The notes beneath the pieces are model-generated. The model was not told where the DNA came from. It did not search any database and worked only from the letters and a program-made list of their open reading frames with translations. From the NCBI GenBank assembly GCA_025267735.1, contig CM046301.1:12088190-12152189 (forward strand): a stretch of 64,000 nucleotides of DNA. The letters are read 5' to 3'. This DNA is from Mactra quadrangularis (taxonomy: Eukaryota; Mollusca; Bivalvia; Venerida; Mactridae). Below are positions 13,301-58,179 of this stretch, in pieces; position 1 is the stretch's first letter; each line of letters begins with the position of its first letter. The position numbers and the translations under genes were made by a program.

Positions 13301-16300
13301 TGTTAACGCGTAATGCGGACTACATTAATTGCAGTAGTAATTATCCCTTGGAATGCGCACGCACAGCCGAATGTAATCGTCCGCGACAAATTTTGATGAG
13401 GATTTGCCACAGTCCACTACTAAACATGGGAAACCCCATGTAAAAAGTATTTGTTCCTTATAATATGTAGCTTTAAGTTTGCTGATCATTGTAATGAGTA
13501 TATCAATATCAAGCATTTCAAACTTTACTTTGTCTAAAGTTCAAACCGTTTGGCTAGTGCAATCAGTAGCACAAAAGTCTACTGTTTAAAGGGTTGAGTG
13601 TTTTATTCCTAGACTGGTATACTTTGGCAGAGTTTGGTCATGAAGTAATTTCTATGACCATTCTCCTTGCTACTACTGATTCCTTATTATACCCCCGCTT
13701 CGAAGAAGAGGGGGGTATACTGTTTTACCCTTGTCCGTGCGTGTGTGTGTGCGTCCGTCCGTCCGTTACGAAATTTCCGTCGCAGTTTTCTCAGCAACTA
13801 TAACATGCAGCAGTCTAATACTTTGCATATTGCTTCATCCCATAGTCCCATGTGGTGTAAAGCGATTTCATGCTCCTTGCTCATCTACTTCCTGTTTGTC
13901 GCATATTTTTAGATTTTGGCGGGGATTATCACTAGTGAGCATTAGCTCACAGATTTACTTGTTATATAGGGCAGTTAGTTGTCAGTCACTGACTGAAGTA
14001 TATGCCTATTAACTGGTTAACAGCTAAATCCAGAGATTTAACCTTTCCGGGAATGGTGAGTAGGTTGACTGAGCACCATGATTTGACATACACAGTATGT
14101 TGCTACAGTATTAAACTCAACCAAAATAAACCTATGATTTAAATTTTTTGTCTATTTTACAGTCTGTTAAGATATAACACCAGTCTACATTGGATTCCTG
14201 TTACATTTCGTCATCTACCAGCCTCATCATCTGTCATGCAGGAACACCTATTATCTACAATGGAATCACCCATTTCATCTGAACACTATACTAGATTACT
14301 TCATGCATGGATCATTGTGGTCAAGTCTATTAGAATATTTACAGGGGTGTCAGATTTGGTATGTATCTAATGGTTTTATCTTTGTCAGTGATTATTGATT
14401 GGCTTGTTTATTAGAGCTTAAATATTTCTCTGTACATTTCTGACTGATCTTAAAACTGACTATATTTAATTGATTAACTATTATTTTTCTATTTTACTTT
14501 ATTTCTGTATCTTGATTTAATTTTGACCAATACTCATTTAAAATGCTATGCAAACAAATATCAGCCTTTTCTATAGTATATGACCTCAGTTCTACTGGTT
14601 TTGATATTTAATTTATACATTCGTATTTAATCAGTAAAAACTTATTAATCTTGCATAGAGGTCCAATTAACTCTTCCCTGTCAATTTATAATTATTGATT
14701 CAGTTACAAACTTTCTTTAAGTCTTCAAAACAAACTTTCATCAGCAATGGACATTCTATCCAGCAAAATGGATTTTTTCACTGGACAAAATGAAAGTTTA
14801 CTAGACCAAAAATACTCTTAGTTATATGTTCAAATATGCAGTCAAATATAATGATTTAGCATAAAATATTCTTATATTAAATAAACAATATAACAACAAG
14901 CAATGTTTTTTATTGGATATGGAAAGTGGGGGCTGTAAAAAGCTGGTGGACCATTGGGCCACTAACATTCTTAAAGTCACTGGACCGATGGCAATTTTGA
15001 TGGACTCGGTCCATGGTCCAATGGCTAAATTTTAAGTCCAAAGTTAGGTGTGAAAAATTCTTTTTTAATTTAAGTTATAATTTATTTGATGATGATCCAT
15101 ATAATTTAAATGGTAGCACAATGCATGTTGTAGCACTATATTTCAGGATCATATAAATGTAAGAGAAGCTTTGTACCATGCTGATGAAGATGTTAGATCT
15201 GATGCCATGGCTTTAGTTTGTACTACATTGAAAAAAGCTGGTAAGATGGTTACTTAATGTTATGTTTCCAATCAGAAACCCACCGTGCTTGTCCATTATA
15301 ATACCCTGGGTAACTGAGAATGTGTTCAAAGGTGCTGTGTTTGTTTCTTATAATGAAGCAGAATGAATACTCTAACTGGTCTCTGTTACTGAAATTATTG
15401 ATAATGAAATAGCATGTGCATATTACCCTGAGGCACTAATTTCAACATCACATTAATTGCACTGTAACCAAGTACAAATGTAGTACAATAAATACTTGCT
15501 ATCTTGAAATTGTATTTAACAGGTTCTTGTTTTTCATTATTTGTTTGTTCATTTTATAACAAAAGTTTAAAAATCAAACACATCTCACTCTTTGCTTTTT
15601 GTCTGTGTGGAAGGTCAGGGGTATTTACTGTTGCTGTTCGGAGTGTTCCTAGTATTTTTTCAGACTCCCTTTTTTATATTAACTCTTATTATTTTAAAGG
15701 TCAACATATTTATTTCAGAATGTATATCAACAGTAGAAGTGAGACTCTTGAAGGAATATTTACCATATAATATAAAAATAGATTCAGCACCATTTAGACA
15801 ACATTTAGGATCTGATATAAGAAAATTACTGGTTAGATTACGTGACAGTTGTATAACATTGCTAAGATCACCATCTAGTAACAAGGAGAAGTTAGGTAAG
15901 TGTGGCTCTTTAATTTGTTATAATACCTTTTCCACAAATTTAATTATGGGAATAGGTGAAGATATAAGGAACATATAAAGGAGTCAGCTTGTCCCCCAAA
16001 ACTTAATTAAGGGGTTTAAGGGACATATAAAAGCATCAGTTTATTAGTTTGGCCATTCATGGACTTGTCTATCTTATGGTTTCTGGGTCATTATTTGCAA
16101 TTTAGGCAATTAATTAAACAAACTTTTTTATAATTGTGAAGAAATACTTTGAACCTTAAGCATTAAGTCTATGGAGCAAAAAATAACTGCTGTTCCCACT
16201 GTTTACTTTACCACCATATGACAGAACTAAGTACTATAAGGCCATTTTTAATCAATAATTTATTTGAATATAACCATAATCTACATTTTGAAAGGGGTAA

Positions 16301-19300
16301 CATGGACAGTTTCTTATTCTGAAAACAAAAATACAGCAATAAATTAATAAAATCACTCCTGCAATACTTTTGCATAACAACACTTTAAGTATTCATTAGA
16401 CGTCCCTCTGCAACACTTTGCTGAGATTGCCCTGTGCCTATACATATATCATGTACATTGAATTTAGCACTTCTTCTGTTCAATTTTAGAAGGGTTTACT
16501 AATTTTATCTTTTTTCTTTCTATATTTGTTTCTACAGACTGTGCAATAGAGTTTGTAAACTGGTTACATGATTTATGTATAAGTTATCTACTACCTGGTG
16601 CTTCATATCAGAAACGTAAAGGCAGTCTAGATTTACTACATGTTTTATATGAAAGTCTTATATATTGTCCTGATAGTAAACAAAGGAAGGGATTTGTACC
16701 AGGTTTGTATGTTAGTTAACTCCCTTTAATTGTAGCTCCTTTGATTCATGATTTAATTATGTTTGCAAATCATCTTTTTATTGAATGATTTACGGTGGTT
16801 TGTTCACCTTAACACTTTTTACCTTGAATTGTATATTCCAATGCTCTCTTACCTTTTCATACAGTTTATTTTTCAAGATAATAGGCTATTGGCCTATGAA
16901 TCAACTTTGTATGTTAACACTTAACTGTATTCCTTTGTGATTGATGCTGCTTTATTTATAGATTTAGATTTTTTAAACTAATTCAAACAATACATTGTGT
17001 GTTTGTTTTTCTTTGTGAGCATGTCAATTTAAGAGTTTAAGCCTTGGTTTATTCAAATGATTTTGAAAAATTTTGTACCCCAAGAAGTGTTAGGGATGAT
17101 TTTAGTGACTTTTGTACTGTACTTCTCACAAGCTATGGTCAGTTTTCCATAGAATATTAAGAATTTTTTTACACAGTTACAGACAGTTACTAGTAATCTT
17201 GAAAGTTTAGGCCAAATCTGTAAGTGAGCTGCTTAATAGTACTCTAACATTTGTCCTACAACTGATTTCATAGTTTGTTTGCTTATCATTCATATATCTA
17301 CTTGCATGTCTGTTCATTTTACATTTTATATGTTACAGAAAATGCCCTTAAACTTGTAGACTTTGCTAACAAGTCAAGACAATGGATGTTTTTTACTGAC
17401 AATAGTTTACAAGCTTTGATCACATGTCTGCTTGATGGAGCTGATGAGGTATATATGAGCATTTTACTTTATATGAGCTTGCCTGTACTCAAGGCTTATC
17501 ATTCAAAATAAGCTTGCATTTATCTTTTCATTTTATCAATAGTTTGCAAAGAATTTTATGGATTTAAAGACATCTGTGTTTCTCTATAAGAATTTAAAAC
17601 ATCCAACTAAAGCTTTTTTATTTCACATTGAAACAGTTCTAATTTTTAAAATTTAATAAGACGAAAATAAAAACATTTTCTCATAGCCATTGTATTTTTA
17701 TGGTGCAACAACAACAACAACAACAACAACAACATGTTTATTTGTATCAGGCCTCCAGCCCATAACAAGTACAACAAGTTATAAAGTGAACATAATGTAC
17801 ATGGTAAACAACAATGGCAGATGACAATGATATGAATTATAGTATGAAAGTTTGCAAACTAGCAATTTATATAATATACATAATAACGCGTACATGTATA
17901 TATGTAGGTTTATATATACATACATAGTTACATGCATACTCGTTTTTATAGTAAAATAATGATATTGGTATCAAAGTTATAGCCTTAGAACCATCATTTT
18001 TCTTGCAGTTGCATGACATATATAAAAGGCAAGGTTTCTTTTAATGGTCTGGTTTTTACTAGATAATAGGATGTTCAGTTTGTTTATTGATGGATTAATA
18101 TAGAATTTTGAAGGAATGAATAGCTGCCGGATATCAGAATATACAGGGCAAATTAATATAAAATGTAACTCATCTTCGATTCGGTTTGTCGAACATATCA
18201 TGCAAATACAAGATTCTCTAGGCTTTTTATAGTATTTACCTCTTACAACTTCAAGATGCGGTAAACCAGATCTAAGTTGTGCATAACAATGTCTGAATTT
18301 ACGTATATACAGAATGTCAATATATGTTTCTTTATCAAATGATAGTTTTATTTGTTTATACAAATGAAGAGCAGAAGAAGATTCAAGTTTACTATACCAT
18401 TCTTGGAGAAACTTATCTTTAAGTCGTTGGGTAAAAGTATATAAAAACAAATGTTCATTTTCAACGTATTGGTTATCCCAGACGTATCCAAAGCCGTTGC
18501 TACATAAAAGATGCTTAATTTGGTTGGCCCAATTAAAATAATGAATACAATCAAGTTGTTTAAGCATAGTATAACATTTCTTTACATATCTTGTGTCGGG
18601 CATTTTCAAAATCTTTAGCCAATACTTAAGACAACGTTTTGAAGATTCGACCCAGATTGGATAACGCTCACAATCACCTAAGACAGACGCGTTATATGAT
18701 AATTTATTTACGCATAAAAATCGCTTACAAGCTAATCGAAGAACCATTTCACTGCTTTCTCTAGATTGGTACCCCCAGATTTCTGAACCGTATAATATAA
18801 TTGGTGAAATTTTTGTATCAAAAAGTTTAAAGTATGTACTATATGGTAATTGGCCATATTTATACAAGGATGAAAGCAATGTAAGGAGAGTGCGTTTAGC
18901 TTTAATAGCAAGTTCATTTGACATTACGTTCAATGATAATGTGGAACTAAATGTAACACCGACATAAGTAAATTTGTTAACAATTTCTAATGGATCAGCT
19001 CCATAATAAAATTTTTCATTTGCAGCCAATTTACTACCTTTCTTAAAAACCATTACTTTGGTTTTAAGTGTATTAACAATCATTCCATTAACATTACAAA
19101 ATTGCTGTAGTAAATTTAATTGATATTGTAAACCTTTAACCGTATCAGCCATTAAAGCGACATCGTCAGCAAATAAAAGTTGCCATATAGATATATCATT
19201 AGGCATAGTTTGTATACCTGTTACATTATGATCATTATTCATAAGAGTTGCAAGTTCATTAATAAACAGAGAAAATAATTTTGGAGAAGCTAAACAACCT

Positions 19301-22300
19301 TGTTTAAGACCAACCGGACAATTAAAATAAGTGGTGCAATTACCATTTGCACGTACACAGGATTTAACATGCTTATACATACCCATGATAGAGTTTAACA
19401 ATTTTCCACGTATATTTGCATTAAACAATGTTGACCACAATTTATCCCGATTTACTGAATCAAAAGCGGTTTTAAAGTCAATAAAAGCAACATACATTTT
19501 ACCTCTTTTCTTAGAAAGTGATTTAGATATAAGAGATTGCAGAACAAAAACATTATCAATTGTGGAATATCCTGATCGAAACCCTGCTTGAGATTCATCA
19601 ACTTTATTATAAATGTTTGCATAAAATGATAAACGTCTGTTAATTATACTTGTATATATTTTACCAAAGATGTCTAATAATGAAATCCCGCGATAATTAG
19701 ATGGTGTATCTTTGTCACCTTTTTTGTAAAGGGGGACAATGATAGCACTTCCCCATGCTTCTGGGAATTCACCTCGATCGAACAATCGATTGAATAAACA
19801 TAAAAATAATGGCATTAACAAGTCATATGTGTGTTTATAAAAATTTGGTGGAATACCATCTTCACCAGGTGATTTAGACGATTTCAAAGAGCGAATACTC
19901 ATAATTATCTCTTCGTCTGTTATTTCATCATTAAAAATAGAATGTTCAATTTCAGACAAATTTTCATTAAGATCAATACCAGAATCGAAAACAAAATTAT
20001 CCTCTACGATTCCTTGAAAAAGATTTTCAAAATGTTCTTTCCAAGAATCTAAACAAATATTGTTTCGTTTGTTCTCAAAAGACGTAAATTGCTTTAGTTT
20101 ATTCCAAAAGGATCGAGGATTTCCTGACAATTTTACTAACTTATCCAATTCGCTGTCAAAAAAGGCTTTTTTCTTAACATCACACAGAGTTTTAAATTGC
20201 CTCTTAGCAGACAAATAATTTTCTAAATGTTCATTTGATCTGTGTGATCTAAACGTACGCAATGATTTAAACTTAATTTTTTTCGATTGCTGACATTCTT
20301 TGTCAAACCATTTTGGTTGACATTTATTATGTTTCTTTCTACCTTGTTTTATAATACAAGATGAAGAATCATGTATAATTTCCATGATAGTACTTAACAC
20401 ATCATTTATACTATTACTAGAATTTTTAATTAACATAGATAATTCGTGAACTTTGCTGTTAGATAATATATCAGTAAGATTTAGTCTCAATTTTTGTATT
20501 GAAACATCATCAAAATTAAACAGAACATTTGAATTAGTAACAGGCTCATTTACAGTAGAACTAGTATTTACATTAACAGCATTGTTACATAATAGTGTAG
20601 CTTCAATTGGAAAATGACTTGAGTCAGTTTGAGATCCTACATTAAAATCAGACACCAAATGAAAAATTGAATTTGCTATGATCATGTAATCTATTACACT
20701 AGATCCATTAAAACCAATGAACGTAAAGTTACCTGTATACTTATCGCTACCACATCTACCATTAACAATGTTTAATGCATATGTTTTGCAAAATTCTATA
20801 AGTTTGCGACCTGGACAATTAAATACAGAATCAGATGATATTCTACTAGGAATGTCGTTATACATAATATCTTCACATTCTGACAATTGTGGAACATTTC
20901 GGACAGTATCAATGCAATCACTATGGTTACCAGTGCGTGCATTAAAATCTCCCATCAGAATAAAATCAACCTCAGCAATATTAATATCAAGTTCATACAA
21001 ATATTGTTCTAAAAGCTCAATACCTTTAGACTGCTCATACCTATAGGCCGGAGAATTTTCAGGTGGCAGATATACAAAACATAGTACAATATCTTTTAAA
21101 GAACCAAATAAAGACTTGTCTATTTTCAGAAATATACAAAATTTACAATCAGACTTCAACTGTGTTACATAGTAGTTATATGCTTTTTTAACATAAACAA
21201 CAATACCAGCCATGGCTCTACCATGAACATCATACCTAAAAGCATTAATATAATGACAAACATAGTCATCAATAACATTTACAAAATTGTCATGACAAAT
21301 TTCCCAAGTTTCTAACAGACAAAATATAGTGAATGATTTTAAATAGTCTAAAGTACTTTTAAATTCAAGCTTGTCCTTGATTCCATCAATGTTCCAACAC
21401 ATAATCTTAAAAGTATTTAAAGAGTCAGAAGTAGTTAGGCCTCGGCCTGATTCCTATTGAACATCCATATGTTGCTGGGTTGAAGAAGAAGATGGTTGAT
21501 CTGGTGAGTTATCAGCACTTACATTAATATGTTTATTGTTGGTGTCAGATTGGGAAGGATTAGACCTGATGCACAATTTGCCTTTGTAAAAATAGCCAGC
21601 TTTTCCTTCCGACACTTTCAGGTTTTTTAACGTTTTCCTCTGGTTGAAGGTAAGGTCATCTCCCACTCTAATAGAACACTGACGTAATATATCTCGACCA
21701 CTAAACACTCTAAACTTATCATCTTCGAATCGAAATGTGACAATTACTAATGATGCTTCATTTTGTTCAGTTTTAGATGGAATTAATCTTATATTTTTTA
21801 TATCATCAAAATGCCATTTAAAACCAGGTACGGCAATATTCAGAACCTTTTCAATGACTAATTTGACTAATGCATTGTAGCTTATGTCCATAGGCACTGA
21901 CAAACCAAAAACCCGCATATTGTTAGAAATACTTTTAATATTCAAGCGTTCCACATCCTGGCTAAGATTTGATAGAAGATCACGATTTAATTCAGATGTA
22001 TTATGTACATGTTCTATATCGAGATGAATATTTTCAGTTTCGTCTTGGAGCGATGCAATATTTCTGTCGATACATTGTATATCCTTTTCAACAGAAACTT
22101 GTCTACTCTGGATGGAATTGAAATCAGTTCTGAGTTTCATTTGTTCCGATTTCAAAGAACATATATCGGTTTTAATTTCATGTATATCAGATCTAACCGA
22201 AACAATCTCATTATAAATTCTATCCTCAGCTTGTTTAATGGCAGAGAGTAATGTTTCAAATTCAGTTGGACCAGGGTTAGATTCCACATCCACAGCCAAC

Positions 22301-25300
22301 ATAAGCTTATATTGAGAGATATTAAAGTTTGAGTTTAGCTGGAAAATATCATCAGGTGAATGTAAGCTGCAGGAATAACATGTACCAGTTGACATACTAA
22401 CATAATTTAGATTAAATGTGGAAGTAGAATGATGTACACTCATCACCGGATCCATATCTTTCAAAAACTGATGGCACCACAATGTCCAATATGTACATTG
22501 TAGAATACATATAATCAAGCTGCAGCTTAGAAATACTCTATAATGTATGTCTGATGATTTGGAGTATGGATTATACTTTGAAGATTTATATTTTGGTGAT
22601 GAAGCTCTAGGTGTAAATGTCCCTATACGGCATCTGTATGTCTGAATATCAATACCCATCTCTGTTTTAATATATCTAACGTAGAGTATAGTTTATGGCA
22701 ATAACGCGCTTCCGTAGATTTTTTCAAGCTTACTTCTGTGTACACAGATATTGTCCGATACACATGATATAACAATGACCACTGGACGAATATTAGTAAT
22801 GGCCGCTCAAGTAGTACACACAGTTACAACAAATGGTGTTAGGTTTAAACATTTCAAATGACGAAAAATGTCCAAAGTTCATATACCGACAGAATCTCTG
22901 TGACTTCACAAACAACTTGATATAACTTGTAGCTCGCTAAGATGATTTTAACGTGAGAAAATATTTGTTAAACGTCAAATCAATTTGCCATGTCTACCAT
23001 GTACCGGTGTCATCGTAATATCTATGGTGCAGTTTGGTGAAGTTAAGTTGTTAGGTTTGCTGACTTTAAATCACTGTAATCAATTAGTGAATCTGATAGA
23101 AGACCAAAAGCTTGAGCTCAGCATCTGTCATGACTTTAATATGTGAGAAAGTATGCTGTTGCTTTCAGTGAATGTGAGTCTTGTACTGGTGCATTCTTTC
23201 TTTTATGGTTGAAAATGGACTTTGAAAAATATTTTGTGATTGTTTTTTGTTGTTTTTTTTTCTTACATGAGTACGGTGTATTTAATTTGTCTTTTTCTTA
23301 CACATGTATGGTATATTTTATTCATGTTTACTTAACTGATATAATTATACCCCCGCTTCGAACAAGAGGGGGTATACTGTTTTACCCTTGTCCGTGCGTG
23401 CGTCCGTCCGTTACAAAATTTCCGTCGCAGTTTTCTCAGCAACTATAACATGCAGCAGCCTAATACTTTGCATATTGCTTCATCCCATAGTCCCATGTGG
23501 TGTAAAGCGATTTCATGCTCCTTGCTCATCTACTTCCTGTTTGTCGCATATTTTTAGATTTTGTTAAATGAAAGTTACATTATGATAGTCATATTTCTCA
23601 CAGCGGTGGTGTCACTAGTGAGCATTAGCTCACAGATTTATTTTATTTCCAGATTCAGACGTCAGCTTACAAAATAATAACAAGATATTATAGTAAACCA
23701 ATGTTAAATGATGATAAATCATCTAATGGTTTATGTTGTCATCTAACATCAGCAGCTTTAAAGTTATGTAATAGTCCTAAAGGTCATGAGGGTCAGAGTG
23801 GGGCTGTCTTATGTAAACTAGTATTTAACAAGTAAGTTATTAAAATATTATTGATAGCACATGTAATCTTTTATGTGCAACACTATAACTTTGAGATTGA
23901 AATTTTTTATCTCACAATTAAAGATTGTGATTGTATGACATTACCTTCAGACTGCTTATTTCTGATACAGAAACCAAATTTGCTTAGAAGTCATTATGCA
24001 GCTGAAATTCAGTTTTGGGGCATTCACTCTTCAAATCTAAAATGATAGGAATTACAAATTCTGACATTATAATGATACTGTATCTATAAACTTGTAGATT
24101 TAAACACAGTCAGTGGTACATTTCATTGACTGCAAACAAAAAAGTGATCATTTGCCAATATATTTGTTTCATTACCAATAATCCTTTGCAGATATATTCT
24201 TGAGTCTAACATAAATGTTGATTTCAAGTTGAAATCTACTACATCTAGATATGATGTTACTGTTACCAAGGGAACCAGCAATCACACCACAGTTGCCATG
24301 GAAACCAGTAATCATCCATGTATACAGTTCTTATCATCTATGTTAAGTGAGATAAGACAACAATTAAAACAAGCAGATATGGATTTAGTTAAAGCTTCTA
24401 AACAATATCCTATACATGGTGAGTATAGTTTATTAATGTTAGATGCTTGATGTTGCTTAGACCTGTGATGGTAAGCCCTGAAACAAACAAATAGTTAGCA
24501 ACCAATTCGGCTAGTTCCATTTTATTTTCAATGAAAATATCTGTGCAGGCCCTTGAGGACCTATATTTGAGTTCAGAAAATTTGTTACTGCCAGTAAACA
24601 TTCGGTTCAAAATTAATGTCAAGCTTTGCAGTCCATATTGTAATAAAACAATAAGCATTTTGTTATTAGCATTTGTGACCATGTTTGCACCTGAAATGGC
24701 CATTTGACTTCTATTCTACATGAACTATTTTATAGTTATGCCTAATTTGATTCATATTTTGCTCCAGTGATTTACCTAGAATGATAAAATCTTCATAATA
24801 TTTTAAAAATTATTTTTGTCTTATATAATTACATCCTATTGTTGTTAAGCCTTTTGGTTGCAGTAATTTCCCATGATAATCTTGCTCAGGTAAAAATCTT
24901 CTGTATTGTCTCTCAGGTATATTGACATGCCAAACAAATTCAATATAAATGTCTCATAAAGTTACTTATAGATTTCAGGTATGATCTCAGCATTCACTCA
25001 ATGTTGTGATGTTATATGGGAGACATTATATACTGATATATTTGTTATATTCTAGGTATGATCTCAGCATTCACTCAATGTTTAACAGATTGTGATGTTA
25101 TATGGGAGACATTATATACTGATATATTTGTTATATTCTAGATATGATCTCAGCATTCACTCAATGTTTAACAGATTGTGATGTTATATGGGAGACATTA
25201 TATACTGATATATTTGTTATATTCTAGGTATGATCTCAGCGTTCACTCAATGTTTAACTGATTGTGATGTTATATGGGAGACATTATATTCTGATATACT

Positions 25301-28300
25301 TGTTATATTCTAGGTATGATCTCGGCGTTCACTCAATGTTTAACAGATAGTGATGTTATATGGGAGACATTATATACTGATATATTTGTTATATTCTAGG
25401 TATGATCTCAGCATTCACTCAATGTTTAACTGATTGTGATGTTATATGGGAGACATTATATTCTGATATATTTGTTATATTCTAGGTATGATCTCAGCGT
25501 TCACTCAATGTTTAACTGATTGTGATGTTATATGGGAGACATTATATACTGATATATTTGTTATATTCTAGGTATGATCTCAGCATTCACTCAATGTTTA
25601 ACAGATAGTGATGTTATATGGGAGACATTATATACTGATATATTTGTTATATTCTAGGTATGATCTCAGCATTCACTCAATGTTTAACAGATAGTGATGT
25701 TATATGGGAGACATTATATACTGATATATTTGTTATATTCTAGGTATGATCTCAGCATTCACTCAATGTTTAACTGATTGTGATGTTATATGGGAGACAT
25801 TATATTCTGATATATTTGTTATATTCTAGGTATGATCTCAGCATTCACTCAATGTTTAACAGATTGTGATGTTATATGGGAGACATTATATACTTGTTAT
25901 ATTCTAGGTATGATCTCAGCGTTCACTCAATGTTTAACAGATTGTGATGTTATATGGGAGACATTATATACTTGTTATATTCTAGGTATGATCTCAGCAT
26001 TCACTCAATGTTTAACTGATTGTGATGTTATATGGGAGACATTATATTCTGATATACTTGTTATATTCTAGGTATGATCTCAGCATTCACTCAATGTTTA
26101 AGAGATTGTGATGTTGTTTTATGGGAGACATTATATACTGATATACTTGTTATATTCTAGGTATGATCTCAGCATTCACTCAATGTTTAACAGATTGTGA
26201 TGTTATATGGGAGACATTATATACTGATATATTTGTTATATTCTAGGTATGATCTCAGCGTTCACTCAATGTTTAACAGATTGTGATGTTATATGGGAGA
26301 CATTATATTCTGATATACTTGTTATATTCTAGGTATGATCTCGGCGTTCACTCAATGTTTAACAGATTGTGATGTTATATGGGAGACATTATATTCTGAT
26401 ATATTTGTTATATTCTAGGTATGATCTCAGCATTCACTCAATGTTTAACTGATTGTGATGTTATATGGGAGACATTTTATACTGATATATTACTGATATC
26501 AGAACAATTTATTATATTATGTCATGAGATTATACAGAAAATGTTAAATATCATGTCCGGAGTAGCTGGACAAGGTAAGTTAAGTATTTACTTACTAATT
26601 TATTTTAGCTTGATTGTGAAACAAGTTTTGTTTGTTTGTTGGGTTTAATGCCATAGCAACACAATTATAGGTCATATAACGGCAGTCAGGCAACCTACTC
26701 ACTCCTCCTGGAAAGGCTAAATCTCTAGATTTTTCTGTTAACCAACTACTAAGCGCATGCTTTCGTCAGTGACTGACAACTGCCCTACATAATTAAAAAT
26801 CATTAGTAGGAGGGAGAATGGCCTTAGAAATAATTTCAAGACTATCCCTTAGAAATAATTTCAAGACTATCCAATGATCCAACTTCATAACCCCTTGGGC
26901 ATGCCCGCTCCCTAAGTATAGACTTATAAATTTTTATATACATGTAGATTCATAACTTTATGTAAAGAATCTGGATTCAAGTTTATCAAACTTGTGAGCA
27001 AACTCTATGCCTAATACTTAGTTTTGTTTTTAAACATTTCTTAATTGATGTCAAACTGAAATTATGAACTGATTCATCATAGTATTTAAGTATTTTGGAA
27101 TACCCGGTAAATAAATGCAAGAAATTTTGGAAACAAATTGAGAAGTTAACACAATGAATACTATATAATTTAACAGTCATTGCTTTTAATTTGCTCGAGC
27201 ACTAGCTCAATTTATTATGTTATAAGAGGGCAAAATTATCAACTAGCCCAACTGTATGAAGTAAGTAATTTTACTAGCCTGCATCAAATTTATTTAAAGG
27301 GTTTTAAAGGTAACATGTGGATTTAGCTGATGACTGTTATAGTGTGTATACTTTGTTTATCATAACAGAAGCATGTCCATCATTTGCTGAGATTGGTATA
27401 GCGTTAGAGAATCTACTATCAGAGAATGAAACATATACAACTAGTACATCTATAACACCAGAATATCAATATATGTTATCATGGTGCTGGAATAATATCA
27501 AGGTTAGTCATTTCATGTACTATGTTTCCTTAAAATAAATCTAGTACACCATATACTTTATTAAATGCCCCTACCCTAATTCCCCCCCCCCCCATTTTTG
27601 AAAAAATATCAATTTACCTACATGATTTCAATTTATCATAGATCCCAGAAATTAAGCCATGCAACAGGTATTTGCTGTTTAATATTATATTTCAATTGAA
27701 TGAATACACAACAAAATGCAAATTACACCCCTTTTTTCAGATCACTATGTACATGTATTCCAATTGAATGACACACAAAAAAAACCATTAACGAGTCAGT
27801 AATTTTTGTTTTCCCAAATGCCATGGATGCTTCTAAAATCATAATTTGAAGATGCATCAGTTTCTTTGACTGTTTTTTTTAAATAATAAATGTTGATGAT
27901 CCATTGATTATTAAATTCTCATATTGTTTCTGTGATATATATTTTCCAGGAATGTTGTATCAGTCTAGGGGAGGTAACTTATATAAGTATAAAATCTGGT
28001 CATCCTCTATCAATATCAACATTACAAGACAACAGTTCTACGTTTCTTACTGTACTTACAAAATGTAGACATAAGGTTTGTACTCAGTTATTTCTTATTT
28101 TGGAATGGTGTTGTCTATCAGAGTTATATGAATTGACAGTTTACCTAACCACTGTTTCTAGGGTGCATTAGTACTTAACTACCACCCTTTGTGAACATCT
28201 GGTCACTTTTTTTAACAAAAAGTGCTATAGTCACTAGCTTGACTTGAATCTGATACCCTCTGATAGTGAAAGGGTTCCATTGATTTGAAGTGAGCCACCT

Positions 28301-31300: not shown

Positions 31301-34300
31301 CATTTACCCAGAGTCCTGTGTACCAGTTACGCCATCTGGTGGCAGCAGCACTTGTTGCCTTGGTTACCAAAGAAGATATGATGTCATATATGACATCATG
31401 CATAAATGACCATGTGACATCTCAGAAATCAGTGCCATGTAAACAATACAATAGTCTACATTCTAATTTACTATTCATTGAGAAAATGATTGAAAGACTT
31501 CAAAGGTAAGTTATTATCTGGGTCATGTTTTCTTACAGGTGATCAGGTAGAACTCTCCAAGTAAAAACTATATAATATGTAGACTGCAAATTGGTATCAG
31601 TGGAATTCTAGATTAAAATGCTTAATTAGGAGGGGAATTCTAGTTTTAAGTGCTTTTTTGAAAGATCTTTATTCAAATGTTGATAATAGATCTAATTTGG
31701 AACTCAAACTCAAACAAAGGTTGTCTCTCAATTTTGTTGAAAAGCACAAAGAAAAGTCCTATTGTTCATTGTACAAATATTTCCATTTAGACCATGAAAG
31801 TCTGTTTGTACCACAGGGGAAAACCCAAATATTTGAATTCCCGATATAGTCTATTGTTTCTAGATGACTTTAAGTGTAGAATACAGTTCTAATGCTGAAA
31901 GAATTTTATGAATCATCTAATCTCCGTGAGCCATCACTTCCTTTGAGTGATTTTTCTTTTGAGCAACCACTTTAAAATCCTCCATTGTGATTTCTTTATA
32001 TTTATACCCCCGCTTCGAAGAAGAGGGGGTATACTGTTTTACCCTTGTCCGTGCGTGCGTCCGTCCGTTACAAAATTTCAGTCGCAGTTTTCTCAGCAAC
32101 TATAAGATGCAGCAGCCTAATACTTTGCACAATGCTTCATCCCATAGTCCCATGTGGTGTAAAGCGATTTCATGCTCCTTGCTCATCTACTTCCTGTTTG
32201 TCGCATATTTTTAGATTTTTGCAGGGGTATCACTAGTGAGCATTAGCTCACAGATTTACTTGTTTTATTCTTTTAAGCAACTTTTAAAATTCTTTTAAGC
32301 AACTTTTAAATAGCTTAACCATGAACCACCATTTCCCCATCTAGAAAGACTTAACACCTTTTATTATGCAACCACTTTAAGTCTGTCCTTAAGTTAATTT
32401 CTTAATAGAGATTGGACTGTTCATATTTGGTTATATTTGCAGTAAGGAAGATATTGTATCAATATGGACAATATTACTACAAGAATCCTGGTTACTGTAT
32501 GTTAACAATGGTATAGTATCATCTGTATATGTGAAGATATTACATAAATTATTACAAACACAATATATACCATGGAATAAGAGTATAGAAGATTTGTTCT
32601 ACAATCTCATCAAATCTGGCTGCCAAGTAAGTTAAAGTTTTAGCTTTAATAATACTTGCTTTCATTATTATAGCATTTGTAATGACATTATGTCGGTATG
32701 AATAGCTTATTCATAGCTAATGTTAAACTGTATTTGTTACAAATTGTTCAACAATAAATAAAGTTTGTATTGTATTGTATTGTATTATTTATTGTATTAT
32801 GACTCATAACATCTAGGTTTGTTTCAATATAACTATCATACTAGTCAACTAAATAAAAAATGGTTACTATGTCGCTGTCTACGAAATTAGGATATAAAAG
32901 TGGTTGTCCTAACAGATCATTTTAAGAGCATGAACTACATCTCAATTGCAGCATTTTGATTGCCCAGCTGGGTGGGTAAGTAAAGTACCACTACTAGAAC
33001 CATCAAAATTTGTGGTCTTAATAGCCAAACAGTCTTTATATTGGCACCTTCTTCTCAAATTAAGTATTTGGGATTTAAAATTGTCCCAAAATCACATAAT
33101 TTTGCCAAAATTTAGGTAGTATTTATAGCATAATTTTACTGTAACTATTTTCTTTATCATTTCTAGGTAGTTGGTGACAGTGTGCTATGTATATCTATAG
33201 TACAATTATTATGTGATGTTTATACAGGGAAACAACTATGTCTATCAACATTAACTGATATATTACTGAATGCTGACAATATAGAGATGAGAAAATCTTG
33301 TTTGGAGGAATTAGAAACTGTGGTGATGAAATCTGGGGATACATTAAATGATAGCACTAAACTTATAGTAAGTAAAATGGTCGAATTACTTTTTCAAACA
33401 GGATTTAATATACATATATATTGAATGAGTTATCTTGATAAGGTGTATTGTTACATTTACCATACTTTTTGTTTTATGTAATAAAGTTTTACTAGTATAC
33501 AGTAACTCATATTTGACAAAATACACTGTTTTCAATTACAAGTATTGTTGTGAATATTATTACATATGTCTTTTCTACAGCATTCTGCTGGCTTGATGAT
33601 TTATTATACCCCCGCTTCGAAGAAGAGGGGGGTATACTGTTTTACCCTTGTCCGTGCGTGCGTCCGTCCGTTACAAAATTTCCGTCGCAGTTTTCTCAGC
33701 AACTATAACATGCAGCAGCCTAATACTTTGCATCTTGCTTCATCCCATAGTCCCATGTGGTGTAAAGCGATTTCATGCTCCTTGCTCATCTACTTCCTGT
33801 TTGTCGCATATTTTTAGATTTTTGCGGGGGTATCACTAGTGAGCATTAGCTCACAGATTTACTTGTTCTTATTCAGTTAATCGCTTTGTTTATCTCTTAG
33901 GTTGTATGGCAGTGGCAGAGTTTGAGAATTTATGATGAACAATTTGACTTGACTTGTTCGTTTTTTGTTTTGTTGTTTCATTTGGTTTGTTTTTATTCTA
34001 TGATGCCATTATACACAAGATGTTTATAATAGGTTGGATTACAACATTTTTGCAGTAAGTTTCAGTTTCTTTTCATTGAACTATTTTTTCCATTTTCAGA
34101 CTATTCTTTGTCAGCACCTTTCAACAGAGACTAATCAAAGAATACAATGTGGTATTTTATCACTTATATCTAGACTGTATCTGTTAACTTCATCAATGAA
34201 AGACCAGTCTCTACAACAACTGTTTGACTGGTACACAAATTATAATCTAGGTACTGGTCACTGTAGTCAACATAGAGGTATCCAGTCTGATTATGTTTTA

Positions 34301-40300: not shown

Positions 40301-43300
40301 AAAATAAAGTGTAACTAAAAAGCATTTTAAAAAAAAAGGGTAATCAAATTTTAGATAAAAACTATTCAGTAGGCCTACTGAGTGAAAATGTCTCCAAACT
40401 TTTGTTTGGTGCTGTACTTGAATGTATGACTATTGTATGATTTTAAATTAATTCTTACTATATCTCAAAAAGTACAAAACTTAGTTCGGAATTTAGAATT
40501 GTCTATGTTGTGTTGAATTACGTATTTTGATGAATGGTTTAATAACTTGGATTTGTGGTCAGGATTTTGTGTGATTTTATCTTAAGTATGTGTTAAATTT
40601 TACTTATTATATGGTAGATATACTCATACATATACTGGGAATGACAACCATTGTTCTGATATAAATATGGTCCCCAACTTTATTTTTTGAGTTATATGCT
40701 GTAGCATCACATTGTATTGGTCATTTAACCTGCTGGAATTGAACCTTCAACCCCCCCCCCCCCAAGCAGGTTGTACTTTTGTGGAGATAGGTAATAAGAT
40801 AATTTCTAAGGCCATTCTTCCTCCTACCACTGATTCTTTATCATGTTTGGCAGTTGTCAGTTACTGATGGAAGTATGCAACTAGTAGATGGTGAACAGCT
40901 AAATCCAGTGACTTAGCCTTTACAGGAACAGTGAGTAAGGTGACTGATCGCCATAATATGACCTAAACAATGTGTTGCTGCAGCCTTAAACCTAACCAAT
41001 ATGGATTTAAACTACATGAACATGCATCTTGATAGAAGTTTCAACATATTAGAAAAGAAATCAGAATCAAAACTATTTTTTAATTTGACTTAAATGTGCT
41101 AAAAAGCCCTGTGGATCTGCATATGTGTGATTCAAAAGTCAATTCTAGTGATAAATTTCCTTGTGTGTTTTTGGGTAATGTTTTTAATTAATTTATAAAT
41201 GATTGAAAGTACCAGTATTAAAAACTATAAATTAGAAAATCAGTTGTAAACTTATTTTAGTGCAGAGTGCTTATTTTTTCCTGGAAAGCCCCGTTACCAA
41301 TTTTATGAGGTGTATAAACAATGATTTAAGCCTGTATCTTGTAAGCTTGCAATCTTGCTGACATGGTGACACGTCAGCAACTTAAGATATTGATCTGTCA
41401 ATTTTGAAGTTATGACATTGATAGGGTTGGTGAAATACTTGTTTGTTAACAGCTAGCTCAGTGAGAAGGGCATCAGTCTACTGATCAAAGAATTGTACTT
41501 TTATGTTTGACTATTTCTACAGCCATTCTCTTTCCTACTAATGATTTCTAAATCATGCAGGACAGTTGTCAGTTACTGACGAAAGAATGCCATATTAACT
41601 AGTTAACATCTAAATTCAGTTATTCAGCTTTTCTAGAAACAGTGAGTCTGTTGACTTACTGCCATGATAGGACCTACATTCTATCAATTCCCCCCTTCAA
41701 GTATACTGAACAAAAAGAGTATGAATTTTGTGTCTACTCAATAAAATTTGACTATCCAACCAACTAACCTCATTATATTAAACTTTTATACCGGTAGTTA
41801 AACCTTCATCACAACGTTTTTACATCTGTCATTCTTTACACAGTAATTTGAAATCGAAACTAGGTTACACGGTTTAACTATGCACCTATACCTACAGAGG
41901 TTTAAAAGTACTTTGAATATACAGATTTATATTCCTGTAGCTATGAGTGATCATTTATTTTACATTTCAACAACGAGTTTGTCAAAAAACGAAAACAACC
42001 AACGATTTTGTCTTCATGCGCCGCACTTTATTCTGTTGCGTACCAAACGCCGAATTTTGGGATGGGTGCGCATCTTAGTATAGAGGTGATATCTTCACCT
42101 TCTATTTATAGAATGTGATAGGACCCTCCATGTGTTGCTATGGCAATAAAACCCTCAATTACGCCATGATAGGACCCTCCATGTGTTGCTATGGCAATAA
42201 AACCCTCAATTACCGCCATGATAGGACCTACTATGTGTTGCTATGGCAATAAAACCCTCAATTACCGCCATGATAGGACCCTCCATGTGTTGCTAACTTG
42301 CTATGGCAGTAAATCCCTTAATTACCGCCATGATATGACCTACTATGTGTTGCTATGGCAATATATCCCTAAATTACCGCCATGATAGGACTTACAATGT
42401 GTTGCTATGGCAATAAAGCCCTCAATTACCGCCATGATAGGACCCTCAATGTGTTGCTATGGCAATCAATCCCACATAAAAAGCTAGTTTCATATTTCCC
42501 ATGTTGTCATATTTTCAGTGTTTGTTGAAACAATGTCAGAATGAAGAAGTTATGACAGAGTTCCATGGTTACCTTGACACCTTAGCTGTTACAATGATGA
42601 ATGATTTGAAGTTTTTGTTGACTGTACTGGATGATATAGAAACAGGTAATAATTTGTTGTGGTGTTATTTATGATAGCTGAGCTTTTCAAGAAAATTATT
42701 GGTTTGATAATAAATCTGATACCTTAAAAATATTAAATTATAATGTTTACTCTATTGAACGGGGCTTCAAGTTATGAGTGTTTTAAGTTTGCTTTGTCAA
42801 AGCTGTGATGCAGTGGTTTACTTGTTCTATTTTAGTCTTATCTATTTGGCTTTAAGTTTTGTTGCTTCTTGCCATACCCTTCAATAAAAATTTGAAAATA
42901 ATATTGATTTCTCTTCAACTGGTTCCTTATGGAAGGGTAGTGGTGGGAGCAGTAGTCTAGTGGTAGGACACGCGCTTAGGGATTGAAAGGTCCCAGACTC
43001 AAACCCCACCAGGGGTACTGTTAATTTCCCAGAGCAAGAAATTTACCTGTGCGATTGCTTTGTTTCACCCAGGTGTAAATGGGTACCCTAACACCCCCCC
43101 CCCCTGGAAGATTGATAGATAGATACCAGTTGCCTTATGACCAGGGGTAATATATCTAAAGTCCGTGAACATGCATAAGAATGAAACTTAGACTATAAAA
43201 TTCAACTACTTTAAATTTACTATAAGGGTAACAGATTACAGGTTTTAGAGAAATGACCAGCAAAACGGGTTAGATGGTCTGTCCACTGAATATGACAAAT

Positions 43301-46300
43301 GTTAATAAACAACATAAAATCAGAAAAAAAGAGTTCTTGTTGGAGATGTGTTGGTTTTCTTCTAAGCTGGTTAAATTTCTTTGTTAAAATTGTTGGTTGT
43401 CGAACCTTGTCACACTCGACTATTTTTTGTTTGCCTTGACAAATACTTGAAGTTCACCTCCATTTGAAAATGTAAATGCCATTCTATGACCTTGACCTTG
43501 ACTTTCCCTGATACATGATATTTTACCCAACATGCTAAGCTTCCTAACAAATTAGAAAAAAACTAATATTCTTGTTTCTCTTTGATATGAGCTAATCTTT
43601 TAAAGTCTTATGTTTCCTCAATTTCTTAATAACAGATCATAAAGTTTTAAAATGATTAAATTTTTGTGAAATAAAATTTCTGTTCAAAGAATTTCAAGCA
43701 TCATGTGTGATGTTTATGATTATGTTATTATGAAGTCTAGATCTGTAAATAATTGAAACCATATTTTATCTGAACAAAGTTATACCATTAAGTATATGGA
43801 GCCTTAAGTTTTATTGAATTCCAAATGTCTTGATATCAGTATTTTGCTTTAATGTATTATATAACTGCCTTCTGGCAATCCTTAAGGAAGATCAATGGTT
43901 TTAGTTATAAAAAAAAGAATTGTTCTGTATTAGGTTATGAAATGACTCTCAAAGAGAAAACCATAATTGGTTATATTCTAAAGGAAGATGAACAAGATTT
44001 ATTCTTATAAATAGTCACTGCTTCAAAGAAATTGTCTGATTCTAAGAAATTCTTTTATTTTCAGATTCTGTGATAAATATCTGTAGTGATAACACTGTGC
44101 TTGGAAATATTTCCTCGTTTTTGTTACTTTGTGATATTGTTTCCATGGTAACCAATGATTTAGACATGAAGCAATGTTTATTGACTGTTGTTAAGGTAAC
44201 AATGTGTTATTATCATTATTTATCTCATAGTTTGTAGATAATTGGTCTGATTGCATGTAGTTAGTGATAATTTGTGGAGATAATTGGTGAAATAAAGTGA
44301 TTATTTATAATGATGACACCAAAGTATGAACATATTTCACATTCAGTTTTTTTCTATATTTGGGGAAGAGACATGGGGCATTTATTTATTTACATGTAAA
44401 CTAAGATTTTGAGAAATTTTAGTGCGATTTCAATGACAGGGAAAACTAGAGAGAAATCCAAGTTCAACTCTAAATTTGGATAAAACTGCATGAATTCAAA
44501 GAAGTGATTGGAGGGAAAGGGGCATGCAAATGGTCCCTTTTATATGAGGAGAAAAGCCCTGACCTTAGTGTGGCAAATCAAATTTAAACTAATGACTGTG
44601 AAATTAAAAATCAAAAGATTTTTAAGTAAAAATGAAAACCATTCAGATAAATCAGATCAAGTAGATTTAATAGACGACTTAAAGCATGTCACAGACCGAT
44701 GTTTACATCTCATTTTATGTATACTAACTACAATGTCTATTCAACAACTGTAAGCTACACAGAAATTGTTAGAAAAATTGATTGTGAAACACATAATTTG
44801 TTAGGAACATTAAGCATGTCCATTTCACACATCCGCTTATATAATTCGAAAGTTGCAGACATCACGACATGACATGAAATCTATCATAAATGCATGAAGC
44901 ACATTCAAATAGATTTACTATGATTGTCAACTAATTAAATAAATCGGGCAATATAATATAAAAAAAGTTTTTTTATACATCAGTGCATCATAGAAATATT
45001 ACCTGAAAATGACTAAGGAGTTAGAAATGTTGTTAAGTATATACGATATGGTATACCTAAACCCTTACATATTGACTTGGTCTAAAACTGGAAAATAAGC
45101 AAAATGCATCATTTGTAATTTTCTGTCACATTATGTTACTCATCCCTGTTAGCACGTATAGAATGACGTACATTTGTATCTGCATGTGTTCATGTGTTAG
45201 CTTTAATTATAAGTACAATTGCTGTTTAACTAAAAATAATTGGTTCAAAATTGTTAAATAATAATTCCCTGACAATTACTTGTGCATGCATGCACGTTAC
45301 AATCCTTTGTTTATCACCACTATTTATTTCTATTTGTATTCATTTTATTTTCAAGTTGCATGTTATATAACTATCACAGACTTCATGATGCCTATACCAT
45401 GTGAATTTATGTGCTCAGTGGAGGTTAAAATATCATAACAAAGGACTGTCAAGGATTTTCTTCCATATTTGTTTTATTATTTCACCATTTTTTATAATAA
45501 CATGCAGTGCTCATTCCCTTTACTAGATAAACACTTTTTGTAAAGTGAAACAGCTTGATTTTTACTGTTCAAACATACTTTATTAATTAACAAAAATGTA
45601 TTTTTTCTAAAAAAAATTACATATTAGTTAAGTTACTTATTAGGAGTTCACCCAAAGTTACTCCATATAACATAAAAGTAAAAAAGTTATGGTAAGAAAA
45701 CATACCTGGACAGTTTCAATATTTTGACAAACATGTAGAAAACACATAGATCTTTATAAGAACAAAGACAATGAATGTAACACATTTACAATGCTAATAT
45801 GCACTCACATTGAAGATTTACATTACCTGATTGTTAACTTATTCAGTATCACATCTTACCCTATCTAGGGGTCGTAGGCCTGAATTCTTGGCAGGATATT
45901 TACTCTGAGTACTATGACTGACTGCCAAAATATGATTGAAAAAAGTTTAAACTGTGATGTGTTGGACTATTGCATCTTTTAAAGATTTACAAGAAATATT
46001 GTATCTTTTAAAGATTTACAAGCCAATTTAAATATTTGTATATCTAAAATTCACAAATCATTACATAACGAAAAATACTTCATGAATATAAAAATTGCTT
46101 ATGATACAAATTGTATGAAATTATGTAAATTATTTTTTATTCTTCACTGTACAAGATTTATAGTGTTCAAGTGCAATATTTAGCATGTTTAATTATTATG
46201 TACAATGATACACGTGTCTTTCTCGACCTCCAACTGTGCAAATATAATGTCAGAGAGTCCATTAGGTGAAAATAATGTTCAAGGAACATGAAACATTTCT

Positions 46301-46563: not shown

Positions 46564-46641
46564 GAGAAACGCAAGCGGGACTTGAAGTGGCAACTCACAA
46601 TGTTTGGAATTTAATAGCGTCTCTTCTGGTTATATGTTTTA

Positions 46642-46647
46642 AATAAA
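46642..46647 (+). terminator. THADA: Polyadenylation signal of THADA (copy A)
   Basis: AATAAA 79 bases after the stop codon, followed by a T/G-rich stretch (GTTTTGAAAGC, then TTTTGGACTC). It predicts a very short 3' UTR. Confidence 0.75.
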
Positions 46648-47549
46648 GTTTTGAAAGCTAATTTTGGACTCATAGTGTATTTTGTACGGCTACAATTTAT
46701 GATGTATGATTCGAATTAGTGTCAATTGAAATTGTACCCAAAATAAAAATTTGAATGTAACTTTTTTAGTCTTTATTTTTCATTCGATATTTTTTAAAAC
46801 TAATTAAAGATGCATAAATTGCGTGAGATAATTCTGATTTTAAAATAATCGATTCTTTCATCTTTAGCATATTATGCTTTCTTATTTGCTCAAGAACCTC
46901 AATTTGAAGAAACACTAAGTTCTAGTGAACACCCTGGACAGCCAGATCTGGCTTGTTGTTTACAATGATGAAATTTTGTCTAAGTCGCTTTGAGCAAGTA
47001 CCTCTTCGCCAGTTTATTATTTCTTGGATTCATATAATTATTAATAATGTATGTAGCCACTATGGATAGTTTAATAGTCATATGATGACCAGAGAACATG
47101 TTACAAATACTATACAGAAGGTGTGGCTTATCAGCACATTTAACAGTAGTACAACATGATTGGTATATTGTAAATACACAACAGCAATGTCTTAGCAACA
47201 TAACAATTAGCAAAAGGAATTTGAAAAATATCTGTAACAGTCAAAAAGCAAAGAAGGGGGTGTTTTTAGATGTTTCAACTGTTGTTATAAAAAGGACAGC
47301 ATAAACGAATTATAAAAAGACAAATTTAATGGGTTTCTGCCTTGGAACTTGGAAGTGTTAGTGGCAAAACGCAGATAAAGGATCAGAAAACCTCTTTATA
47401 AACTTTCACATTGAAGATTAATTATATGTATGTACAAATACAGTTGAATGAACTTTACTTTGTAACAATATTTTATGTGCCATCTGACATGTCAATATAT
47501 ACATAAATATTTACAGTGTAGATCATAATATAGATCATAACACAGCTTC

Positions 47550-47715
47550 TAAATCATGTAATAAAATGTCAGTCACTGACAGTAGTTTGCGCTTAGTAAC
47601 TGGTTAACAGCTTAATCCAAGGGTTTGGCCATTGAAGAACGATCAGCAGGTTGACTGACCCACATGATATGATCTAAATAATATGTTGCTACGGCGTTTA
47701 ATCCAATACAAAAGT
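47550..47715 (+). repeat. SINE family 2, 3' part (copy A)
   Basis: GTCAGTCACTGACAGTAGTT, ACTGGTTAACAGCTTAATCC and ATATGTTGCTACGGCGTTTA. The cleanest tail of the family in the window; partner at 59060-59232. Confidence 0.78.
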
Positions 47716-48589
47716 GACATTTGCGGCATCTTCTTTTATCTTGTCAGATGACTCATTCAAACTTCCACATTCTAAATATAGGAAACGTTTTATATTCCCC
47801 ATGTGTGATATAAAACTAGCAGAGCTTATTTTGACGACGTGGTTATGTTACAACCTGACAGGTTATTTATCAGAAATATTTCAATTGTCTACTGATATAA
47901 TTCTGATTTATATTTCATGTGGTGCAGATTTACATATGTTCAGTAAACCGAACAGTAAACCAATCTAAAAGTTAGAAGCTCTTAAATGACAAACATTTTC
48001 ATGACTTTCTTATGTTCTATTAGGATGTCCATAAACTCAACTATTACAGTTGCCCGAAAAATCAATTCTCTCATGTGCATAGAACTGGAAAACAAACATC
48101 CTCAAAATGTTTTTCTGGTTCTCCAGCACAACTTAAAAACGTCAAGCTAAAATTCCAAAGATTTTGGCCAATCTTTTCCAAAGAGTTTGAAGCCTGTAAG
48201 TATTCCCCAGAACATTTCGGTAAATTTCATCTCACTGAATGGTTATGATTTTAAACGGTCAAACTCTTAGGTTGTAGAATATACGACGTAAAATATATAC
48301 AAAAATGTCAATGCTCAAATTCGTTGCACTCTAGAATATACAATATAAAATGGTCAGCTCAAACTTATTAGTTGTCGTCAGAATTGTGATGGCAAAAAAC
48401 TGCAATACAAACTCTTTGAAATTTTAGCTCGATTACTAAAGAAACTTTATCAAGGGAGCCGCTACATTTTTGACAATCTTCACTAAATTTCATTTTAAGC
48501 TCATTGCAACTGAAACTATTTTTATTTTAACAATTCACCTGTTTCGGCTAAATATAGTATTATGGTCACTGATAATGGCAGTAGTATAC

Positions 48590-49700
48590 AGGCTGTGCTG
48601 ATGTTATTTGGGTTAATGGCAATATTCTATGCATTTATTTTATTCTTAATATACTTACATTTTTTGTGCTCACTGTATTTTCTCATTAGCGAGTGCATTC
48701 CTTTGATATATTATCCCAGTTGCCTTATTTCATGACAATATAATACAACAGTAGGCTACAATATTACTTGATTTGTAATTAGAATTGAGATAAAGTGTAA
48801 TTGGATAATCTTCGTTTCTTTTTTTGATTTACGAGATACCTCTACTCATGGCATTTAAATGCAATTACGATGCCATCGTCCTAGATGAAACTGGCATTTC
48901 TCTCTGACACAACACTTCAATGAATTATTTTGAAATTGAGACATAAAGCAAGCTAAATCTAGAAATTGTTATTTAATCCCTTTGTGACAGAAATGTCGAG
49001 GAAGTAAATTGCTCATACTAGTCCGCTAAAACTTTTATCTTTAAGTGAACGTCATCACAGTGCATGTTATTTATCTTCCTCACCGGAGGGTTGGTGCACC
49101 CTTGGTTTTACACATAGTTTATTCTAAATGATTCAATTGATTAGAAACAAATAGATGTAATTATTAGTCTTCAATGTTGTCTAAAGTAATGTTCTTACGA
49201 AAGAAATGAGAGTGAAAGCATACCACGAAAAACAACAACAGTAGAAGAATAAAACCCTTACAGCGAAAAAGGAAAGAAATAAGGAATATATCATTGCACG
49301 AGGAAACAGTGACTTTGTTTTGGTGATGAATGCATCGCAACATTAAAGGTCAATGATTTACTGATGAAAAAAGAGGACAGATTCTAATTAATTATTCTGT
49401 TAAATGCCAAGATATTGAGTGACCAGACCATTGTCTTAACAAAGCTGACACGCATGTTGCTGCATAAAATTATATGGGCGTTTAGCTATTGGAGAATTGC
49501 GTGATTTCAAACCATTTGTGTACCATTACATGTCAATTAAGTCCAAATAGAGACAAATCGATGTTGACAAATTAACTAACTGGCGATGAATGAACCTAAA
49601 TTTATGTGCTTTAATTTTATTCGACAAACAAAATACAAATCGTTAAGTGTAATGAATATTTAAGGTATTCCTAAAGTTATTGTTTATAAAGATGGTGATA
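48590..49700 (+). repeat. Older internal duplication, member A1
   Basis: Shares blocks with 51120-52330 (A2): TTATCCCAGTTGCCTTATTT, GCAATTACGATGCCATCGTC, ACCATTGTCTTAACAAAGCT and GTCAATTAAGTCCAAATAGA in the same order. More diverged than copies A and B, so it predates the large duplication. Confidence 0.8.
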
Positions 49701-53912: not shown

Positions 53913-53954
53913 GAAAAAGTTAGTTTCATATTTTCCATGTTGTCATATTTTTAG

Positions 53955-58116: not shown

Positions 58117-58164
58117 CTCACAGTGCTTGGAATTTAATAGCGTCTCTTCTGGATATATGTTTTA

Positions 58165-58170: not shown

Positions 58171-58179
58171 GTTTTGAAC

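Follow-up and report, generated by a model that had tools for sequence, protein, structure and literature searches.

The human UBC gene contains nine in-frame units of 228 nt with dual-specific splice sites (DSS), which are reported to splice stochastically. VCX3A also holds a tandem array of such sites, and a model of "DSS expansion" was proposed, in which the growth of a repeat holding a dual-specific site creates introns (PMC10809524). In the potato RdRp gene, one tandem duplication over an intron-exon border led to one new intron, as documented by RNA reads and outgroups (PMC4974935). Recursive splicing involves ratchet points that are found mostly in long introns in Drosophila (PMC8605326) and has been reported over a broader range of intron sizes in human (PMC10156609). 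Here, we describe an array of 18 tandem units, each carrying a splice acceptor and the head of an exon, in the THADA gene of the bivalve Mactra quadrangularis. It lies in a window of 64,000 nt (assembly GCA_025267735.1, contig CM046301.1, positions 12,088,190 to 12,152,189), to which all positions given below refer. A word-match search of one open-licence library, judged by titles and the start of abstracts, found no paper on such an array, a result that does not establish its absence from print.

The 18 units, typically of 86 nt, span positions 24979-26504 on the + strand and belong to the intron preceding the 156-nt THADA exon 26419-26574, the last unit forming the head of this exon. Their starts were mapped at 24979, 25056, 25142 and so on up to 26419. 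Tandem Repeats Finder gives the array a score of 2620 (period 86, 17.5 copies, 95% matches), the best score in five Markov resamplings of the window being 57. An initial annotation, made by a model from the sequence, had placed 18 tandem units at 24979-26574; the mapped starts and the repeat score bear this out with the same coordinates. Thirteen of units 1-17 (units 2-10, 13 and 15-17) are exactly 86 nt long. Unit 1 has 77 nt due to a 9-nt gap, units 11 and 12 have 78 nt each due to an 8-nt gap, and unit 14 has 89 nt (three additional nt). Unit 18 continues into a unique exon tail, followed by the donor AAG|GTAAGT at 26575. The same intron end, TGTTATATTCTAG, stands directly before all 17 units that follow unit 1, whereas unit 1 is preceded by TTATAGATTTCAG. 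Both the amplification of an acceptor together with an exon head and the different acceptor before unit 1, as previously annotated, are thus confirmed.

Units 1-17 comprise 14 distinct sequences (identical pairs: 2/15, 6/10 and 8/9), and the longest exact repeat within the array reaches 171 nt. No higher-order repeat pattern was detected in the array, either at lags 1-13 or by the neighbour test. Two exon-head probes allowing up to two mismatches revealed no stray unit outside the array within the window; the acceptor 13-mer has seven two-mismatch matches in the window, both strands included.

The identity of the host gene, as well as that of the exon, agrees with the initial annotation. Concatenated pieces of open reading frames from the window match the Pfam families DUF2428 (THADA/TRM732; E=1.3e-33), TPR_Trm732_C (5.2e-29) and TPR_Trm732 (4.1e-12), and PDB entry 8y2o chain A, "tRNA (32-2'-O)-methyltransferase regulator THADA", is matched with E=1.2e-26. 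THADA was not recovered when a shorter piece was run against the PDB, the best match (E = 3.7) being unrelated. The exon labels 18 to 20 used here are simply those of the initial annotation. According to the inferred gene model, exon 18 (24192-24418, + strand) ends in phase 1 with ...CATG and is followed by the donor ATG|GTGAGT (24419-24424, + strand; 6.4 bits on the local matrix described below). Exon 19, the array exon (26419-26574, + strand; 156 nt, i.e., 52 codons, phase 1 to 1), consists of the head in unit 18 and of the sole copy of the exon tail. Its donor AAG|GTAAGT occupies 26575-26580 (+ strand) and scores 13.2 bits, this site being inside the training set. Exon 20 (27369-27502, + strand) would be joined in frame if exon 19 were skipped. 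A stretch of the 8y2o match spans the junction of exons 18 and 19 without any gap (...YPIHG|MISAFTQCL to ...FPMYGRVHCITGAL); this fit, although weak (4.4 bits), speaks for an exon that truly starts with GTATG.... The 12 placed exons have a median length of 192.5 nt and the 15 placed introns a median length of 646 nt, the array-bearing intron being 2.0 kb long.

Since the exon starts with GTATGA, a border between units reads TTCTAG|GTATGA (TTTCAG before unit 1), an acceptor whose exon side resembles a donor. The motif AG|GTATGA, which joins acceptor and donor motifs, is found at 17 of the 18 borders, the exception being unit 3 (25142-25227), which starts with AG|ATATGA and has an intact acceptor and a lost donor. 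Splice sites were scored with matrices trained on 15 introns inferred in the window, after leaving out the array intron and dropping five others as uncertain. As these introns had been picked out of 21 core pairs by means of a generic consensus, the scores have a built-in tilt to the consensus. Acceptors 2-18 score 9.1-10.0 bits, within the leave-one-out range of genuine acceptors (1.9-12.1), while acceptor 1 scores 6.9 bits, below all the others of the array. The unit donors score 6.1 bits, except for unit 1 (24979-25055; start CAG|GTATGA, 7.5 bits) and unit 3 (0.6 bits), the leave-one-out range of genuine donors being 4.9-12.8. The donor ATG|GTATGA that would be regenerated after joining a unit to the upstream exon has 4.9 bits, at the lower edge of this range. 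For comparison, the donor of exon 19, included in the training set, reaches 13.2 bits versus 12.8 for the best leave-one-out score among 15 donors.

The combination of both scores sets the array apart from the remainder of the window. Unit 2 (25056-25141), which has the typical 86-nt organization AG|GTATGA ... ACTGATATATTTGTTATATTCTAG, scores 10.0 bits as acceptor and 6.1 bits as donor. No AGGT outside the array matches it on both scores (0/176 on the + strand, 0/195 on the - strand of the window). Within the array, ten of the 18 units reach both scores of unit 2 and six fall 0.9 bits short on the acceptor; the remaining two are unit 1, with its low acceptor, and unit 3, without donor. Furthermore, 15 of the 17 repeat acceptors are preceded, always at the same short distance, by CTGAT, a sequence that resembles the branch motif yTnAy (in unit 2, 19 nt separate its A from the exon) and that belongs to the copied coding part. 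Units 11 and 12 (25830-25985) lost it through their 8-nt deletion, so that it is missing before acceptors 12 and 13, for which the nearest yTnAy was found 48 nt off. Judging from these motifs, a full unit can be read in three ways at once: as a short intron, with donor, branch-like motif and acceptor; as an 86-nt exon, with its acceptor and the donor of the following unit; and as plain intron ballast.

The use of most of these sites would disrupt the coding sequence. If an upstream acceptor is used without any further splice, a stop codon is reached after 25-80 codons in all 17 cases, acceptor 18 alone giving an unbroken frame. When units 1-17 were placed in all 131,072 ordered combinations before exons 19 and 20, only four were open (no unit, unit 11, unit 12, or both), the 131,068 others closing the frame. 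Fifteen of the 17 non-terminal units bear stops, including the seven 86-nt units 4-10 (25228-25829) and units 13-17 (25986-26418, with the 89-nt unit 14), all with AG|GTATGA borders. Units 11 and 12 alone are both frame-neutral and open, and each would add an in-frame insert of 26 residues if retained. Skipping of exon 19 also keeps the frame (156 nt, phase 1 to 1). There is no evidence for selection on the decoy heads, three of the seven types of substitution being synonymous versus 38 of the 198 possible changes (p = 0.13). These seven types, one of which is private to unit 18, were counted by hand in the head codon columns of the unit alignment, columns 1, 45 and 75 being left out.

Two statements of the initial annotation have to be amended in the light of these data. 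It held that only the last unit continues to a donor, which is right for the strong donor AAG|GTAAGT but overlooks that 17 of the 18 units start with a donor-like GTATGA at the acceptor itself. It also described 18 nearly identical competing acceptors. The acceptors are indeed amplified, but their borders are also donor-like at 17 of 18 positions and the units are not equal competitors, since units 11 and 12 lack CTGAT and are open in frame, unit 3 lacks a donor and acceptor 1 is low.

How such a transcript could be spliced can be considered from these features. In the account that we favour, and which we hold to be somewhat more probable than all others together, repeated duplication over the intron-exon border is combined with exon definition that chooses the last acceptor, with some leakage to the decoys. 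The strong donor at 26575 would pair with the acceptor of unit 18, the closest one across the exon of 156 nt. Exon 18 would then be joined to 26419 and the whole array would leave inside one 2.0-kb intron. If splicing first used an upstream acceptor, the regenerated GTATGA could serve as donor for a second splice, to an acceptor further on, by which the normal mRNA might be restored. Jumps longer than one unit could pass unit 3, so that this rescue might operate from any first acceptor except acceptor 3. Without a second splice, the mRNA would carry a stop or, for units 11 and 12, an in-frame insert of 26 residues each. Retention of exon 19 is favoured by its donor, whose score (13.2 bits, in training) is far above that of the regenerated donor (4.9 bits). 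Use of the last acceptor would be made likelier by the need of a conserved gene for an intact frame. In addition, the placed exons are short and the placed introns of medium size. Sites with large flanking introns are reported to prefer the nearest partner over the exon, and those with short introns the nearest partner over the intron (PMC9225289). The exon-side rule of that report, if this 2.0-kb intron counts as large, would point to the last acceptor, 156 nt from the strong donor, and the intron-side rule to acceptor 1.

Several points weigh against this choice of the last acceptor. The 17 decoy acceptors are closer to the upstream donor and are transcribed first. Their scores differ from that of the last acceptor by no more than 0.9 bits in 16 cases, acceptor 1 being 3.1 bits lower; intron definition would therefore favour a decoy. 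In the reported acceptor data, the upstream site is preferred overall, and an exon-definition architecture significantly reduces this preference (PMC9225289). By our reading, these data would back the last acceptor more weakly than the abstract of the report suggests. Furthermore, simultaneous occupancy of two alternative acceptors is described as inhibiting splicing (PMC5389562).

The same upstream preference (PMC9225289) would suit an array that lowers the output of THADA: decoys would often be used, units would be included as stop-bearing or extended exons, and expression would drop with copy number. The acceptors and donors of the units lie inside the genuine score range, 131,068 of the 131,072 unit combinations close the frame, and UBC, a known array, is reported to splice stochastically into a ladder (PMC10809524). 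This poisoning of the transcript would nevertheless be costly for a conserved gene and, with changes too few for a test, there was no hint that selection maintains the sites; we consider it unlikely, though the likeliest of the rival readings. Stepwise removal, in which an upstream AG|GTATGA would be taken, the regenerated donor reused and the array excised in pieces, appears rather improbable. It would benefit from the acceptor and donor motifs lying together at 17 of 18 borders, as recursive splicing relies on joined acceptor-donor pairs (PMC8605326), and from the branch-like motif before the acceptor in the units; recursive splicing has moreover been reported for small to medium introns (PMC10156609). 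However, unit 3 lacks a donor and would halt strict stepping from unit 1 to 2 to 3, which only longer jumps could pass. The regenerated donor ATG|GTATGA (4.9 bits) is also weaker than the TAG|GTATGA of the next unit (6.1 bits), so that the donor-competition rule described in PMC8605326 would favour retention of the unit as a poison exon. In addition, the exon junction complex is reported to repress the donors that are regenerated at annotated exons of this kind (PMC6224609), and conventional lariats to be favoured in introns below 1,000 nt (PMC10156609), although the whole array intron measures 2.0 kb. Strict removal of one unit at a time is thus unlikely, given the break of the chain at unit 3, the weakness of the regenerated donor and the repression by the exon junction complex.

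The array could also hamper the definition of exon 19 to the point that this exon is mostly skipped. The 156-nt exon, phase 1 to 1, would allow an in-frame join and a protein 52 residues shorter, but the head in unit 18 and the tail are still open, and the 9-mer of the exon 19 donor is identical to the other top-scoring donor among the 15 placed; such skipping is very improbable. Least credible of all, the array would be a short one expanded during assembly. Its exact repeats of up to 171 nt exceed a 150-nt read, so that such reads alone would be unable to bridge the whole array, and it contains three pairs of identical units. Long reads could bridge it, since 1.5 kb fits inside single ones, and units 1-17 speak against this artefact by their 14 distinct sequences, in which variants are shuffled and no block was seen to recur. 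A further idea, concealment of the decoys by RNA structure, was not supported: folding of one, two and four units did not surpass that of sequences resampled from a Markov model (z = +0.4, +0.3 and +1.3).

Regarding the origin of the array, the favoured account supposes a tandem duplication of a segment covering the intron end and the start of the THADA exon, followed by further rounds, with exchange between copies, up to 18 units. Owing to the exon start GTATGA, each duplication would have made an AG|GTATGA site usable as both acceptor and donor. All four combinations occur in 9 of the 15 pairs formed by six two-state sites of units 1-17, and neighbouring units are no more alike than in random order (p=0.37). 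These shuffled variants point to exchange between units or to repeated mutation. The first duplication is harder to retrace, which counts against this part of the account. The unit acceptor is identical to acceptor 1 at 8 of 13 positions, while 15 other acceptors of the gene reach 5-10 of 13, and 0.82-0.91 of shuffles align to acceptor 1 as well as the unit acceptor does. On these figures, descent of the unit acceptor from acceptor 1 is not demonstrated, so that the first duplication was not reconstructed. Other sources were considered for this intron end of 13-15 nt. With the exon tail, 10 of 11 positions match, shuffles being as good in 0.03 (15-nt query) and 0.107 (21-nt query) of cases; the corresponding fractions are 0.09 and 0.23 for the upstream intron and 0.74 and 0.46 for the downstream intron. 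With four targets and two queries tried and acceptor 1 at chance, all candidate sources are unconvincing. From the repeat structure, the variation in copy number (variable number tandem repeat) proposed in the initial annotation is plausible.

This locus would provide a natural competition experiment. The acceptor that keeps the frame is preceded by 17 others, of which 16 are near-identical to it and most are donor-like too. A single transcript could tell apart the predictions of intron definition (the first acceptor), of exon definition (the last one), of random choice and of recursive repair. It even contains built-in mutants, namely unit 3 without donor and acceptors 12 and 13 without nearby branch motif. 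The array is also a candidate intermediate on the way from a single tandem duplication to several new introns. More speculatively, and doubtfully, it might act as a splicing rheostat: unequal exchange would make the number of dual decoy sites differ from one individual to another, and added units would either cut the amount of intact THADA mRNA or, for units of the 11/12 type, add in-frame repeats. THADA dose and methylation of tRNA position 32 would then vary heritably with copy number.

The window holds other repeats. Shortly 3' of the array exon, 26627-26834 is a dispersed repeat with diverged inverted relatives (76-79%) at 13977, 40799, 41512 and 59081, and the intron after the array exon also contains a perfect 25-nt tandem duplication (26822-26872). 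Four copies of another dispersed repeat of about 230-280 nt (13684-13967, 23337-23563, 31997-32270 and 33597-33874; 91-98% identical pairwise) share one strand and are each located in another of the inferred introns of THADA. A non-LTR (long terminal repeat) retrotransposon on the - strand (17977-22692) is carried by the inferred intron of 6.2 kb that extends between 17449 and 23653 in THADA. Its stop-free frame of 1158 aa matches RVT_1 (E=9.8e-33) and Exo_endo_phos (3.4e-07), i.e., a reverse transcriptase and an endonuclease, and is preceded by a frame of 412 aa without Pfam match. Downstream of the placed THADA exons, there are two tandem copies of a block of about 10-11 kb (approximately 42130-53074 and 53572-63604). 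Its five longest pieces are 87-98% identical (e.g., 98.1% between 48603-50337 and 59959-61691), and an array of a 52-nt repeat opens each copy. Finally, arrays of 21-22-nt units are located at 50470-50741, where CACGTAA-like words are abundant.

Among the systems described so far, the ratchet points of Drosophila and human share with the THADA array the juxtaposition of acceptor and donor (17 of the 18 borders) and the regeneration of a donor by splicing (PMC8605326, PMC6224609). Unlike the Drosophila ratchet points reported in PMC8605326, the 17 sites of THADA are only 77-172 nt apart, and one border between them lacks a donor. Their intron of 2.0 kb, compared with a median of 646 nt for the 15 placed introns, is not of the long type typical of Drosophila.

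The resemblance to UBC, as described in PMC10809524, is closer. In both arrays, the borders contain an AGGT fit for a 5' or a 3' splice site, so that a unit can be intron or exon, and introns of this type would be multiples of the repeat length. AGGT stands at 17 of the 18 borders of THADA, and the same proportion scores on both sides within the range of the 15 placed introns (acceptor 6.9-10.0 bits, donor 6.1-7.5 bits, with matrices from an inferred gene model), none of the 371 other AGGT reaching the two scores of unit 2. By these sequence features, the THADA array is a candidate tandem dual-specific splice-site array. It differs from UBC by its number of units (18 instead of nine monomers) and by their nature. 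The units of UBC (228 nt) are coding and in frame, a property of UBC that is not general to DSS, whereas those of THADA have 86 nt, 15 of the 17 non-terminal ones bear stops, and a frame that is both unshifted and open is limited to units 11 and 12. Furthermore, the THADA array straddles an authentic intron-exon border, each unit carrying an intron end.

This last feature is shared with the potato RdRp gene as described in PMC4974935, where the duplicated segment also consists of the 3' end of an intron and the 5' head of an exon. In both cases, the intron-shaped unit combines the exon head of one copy with the intron end of the next, the branch site (or branch-like motif) and the acceptor being contained in the repeat. 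In THADA, the branch-like motif belongs to the copied exon part and not to the intron part, the donor is located exactly at the exon start without any exon residue between units, and 17 further copies are present. The THADA array looks like an iterated form of the intron gain described for potato RdRp.

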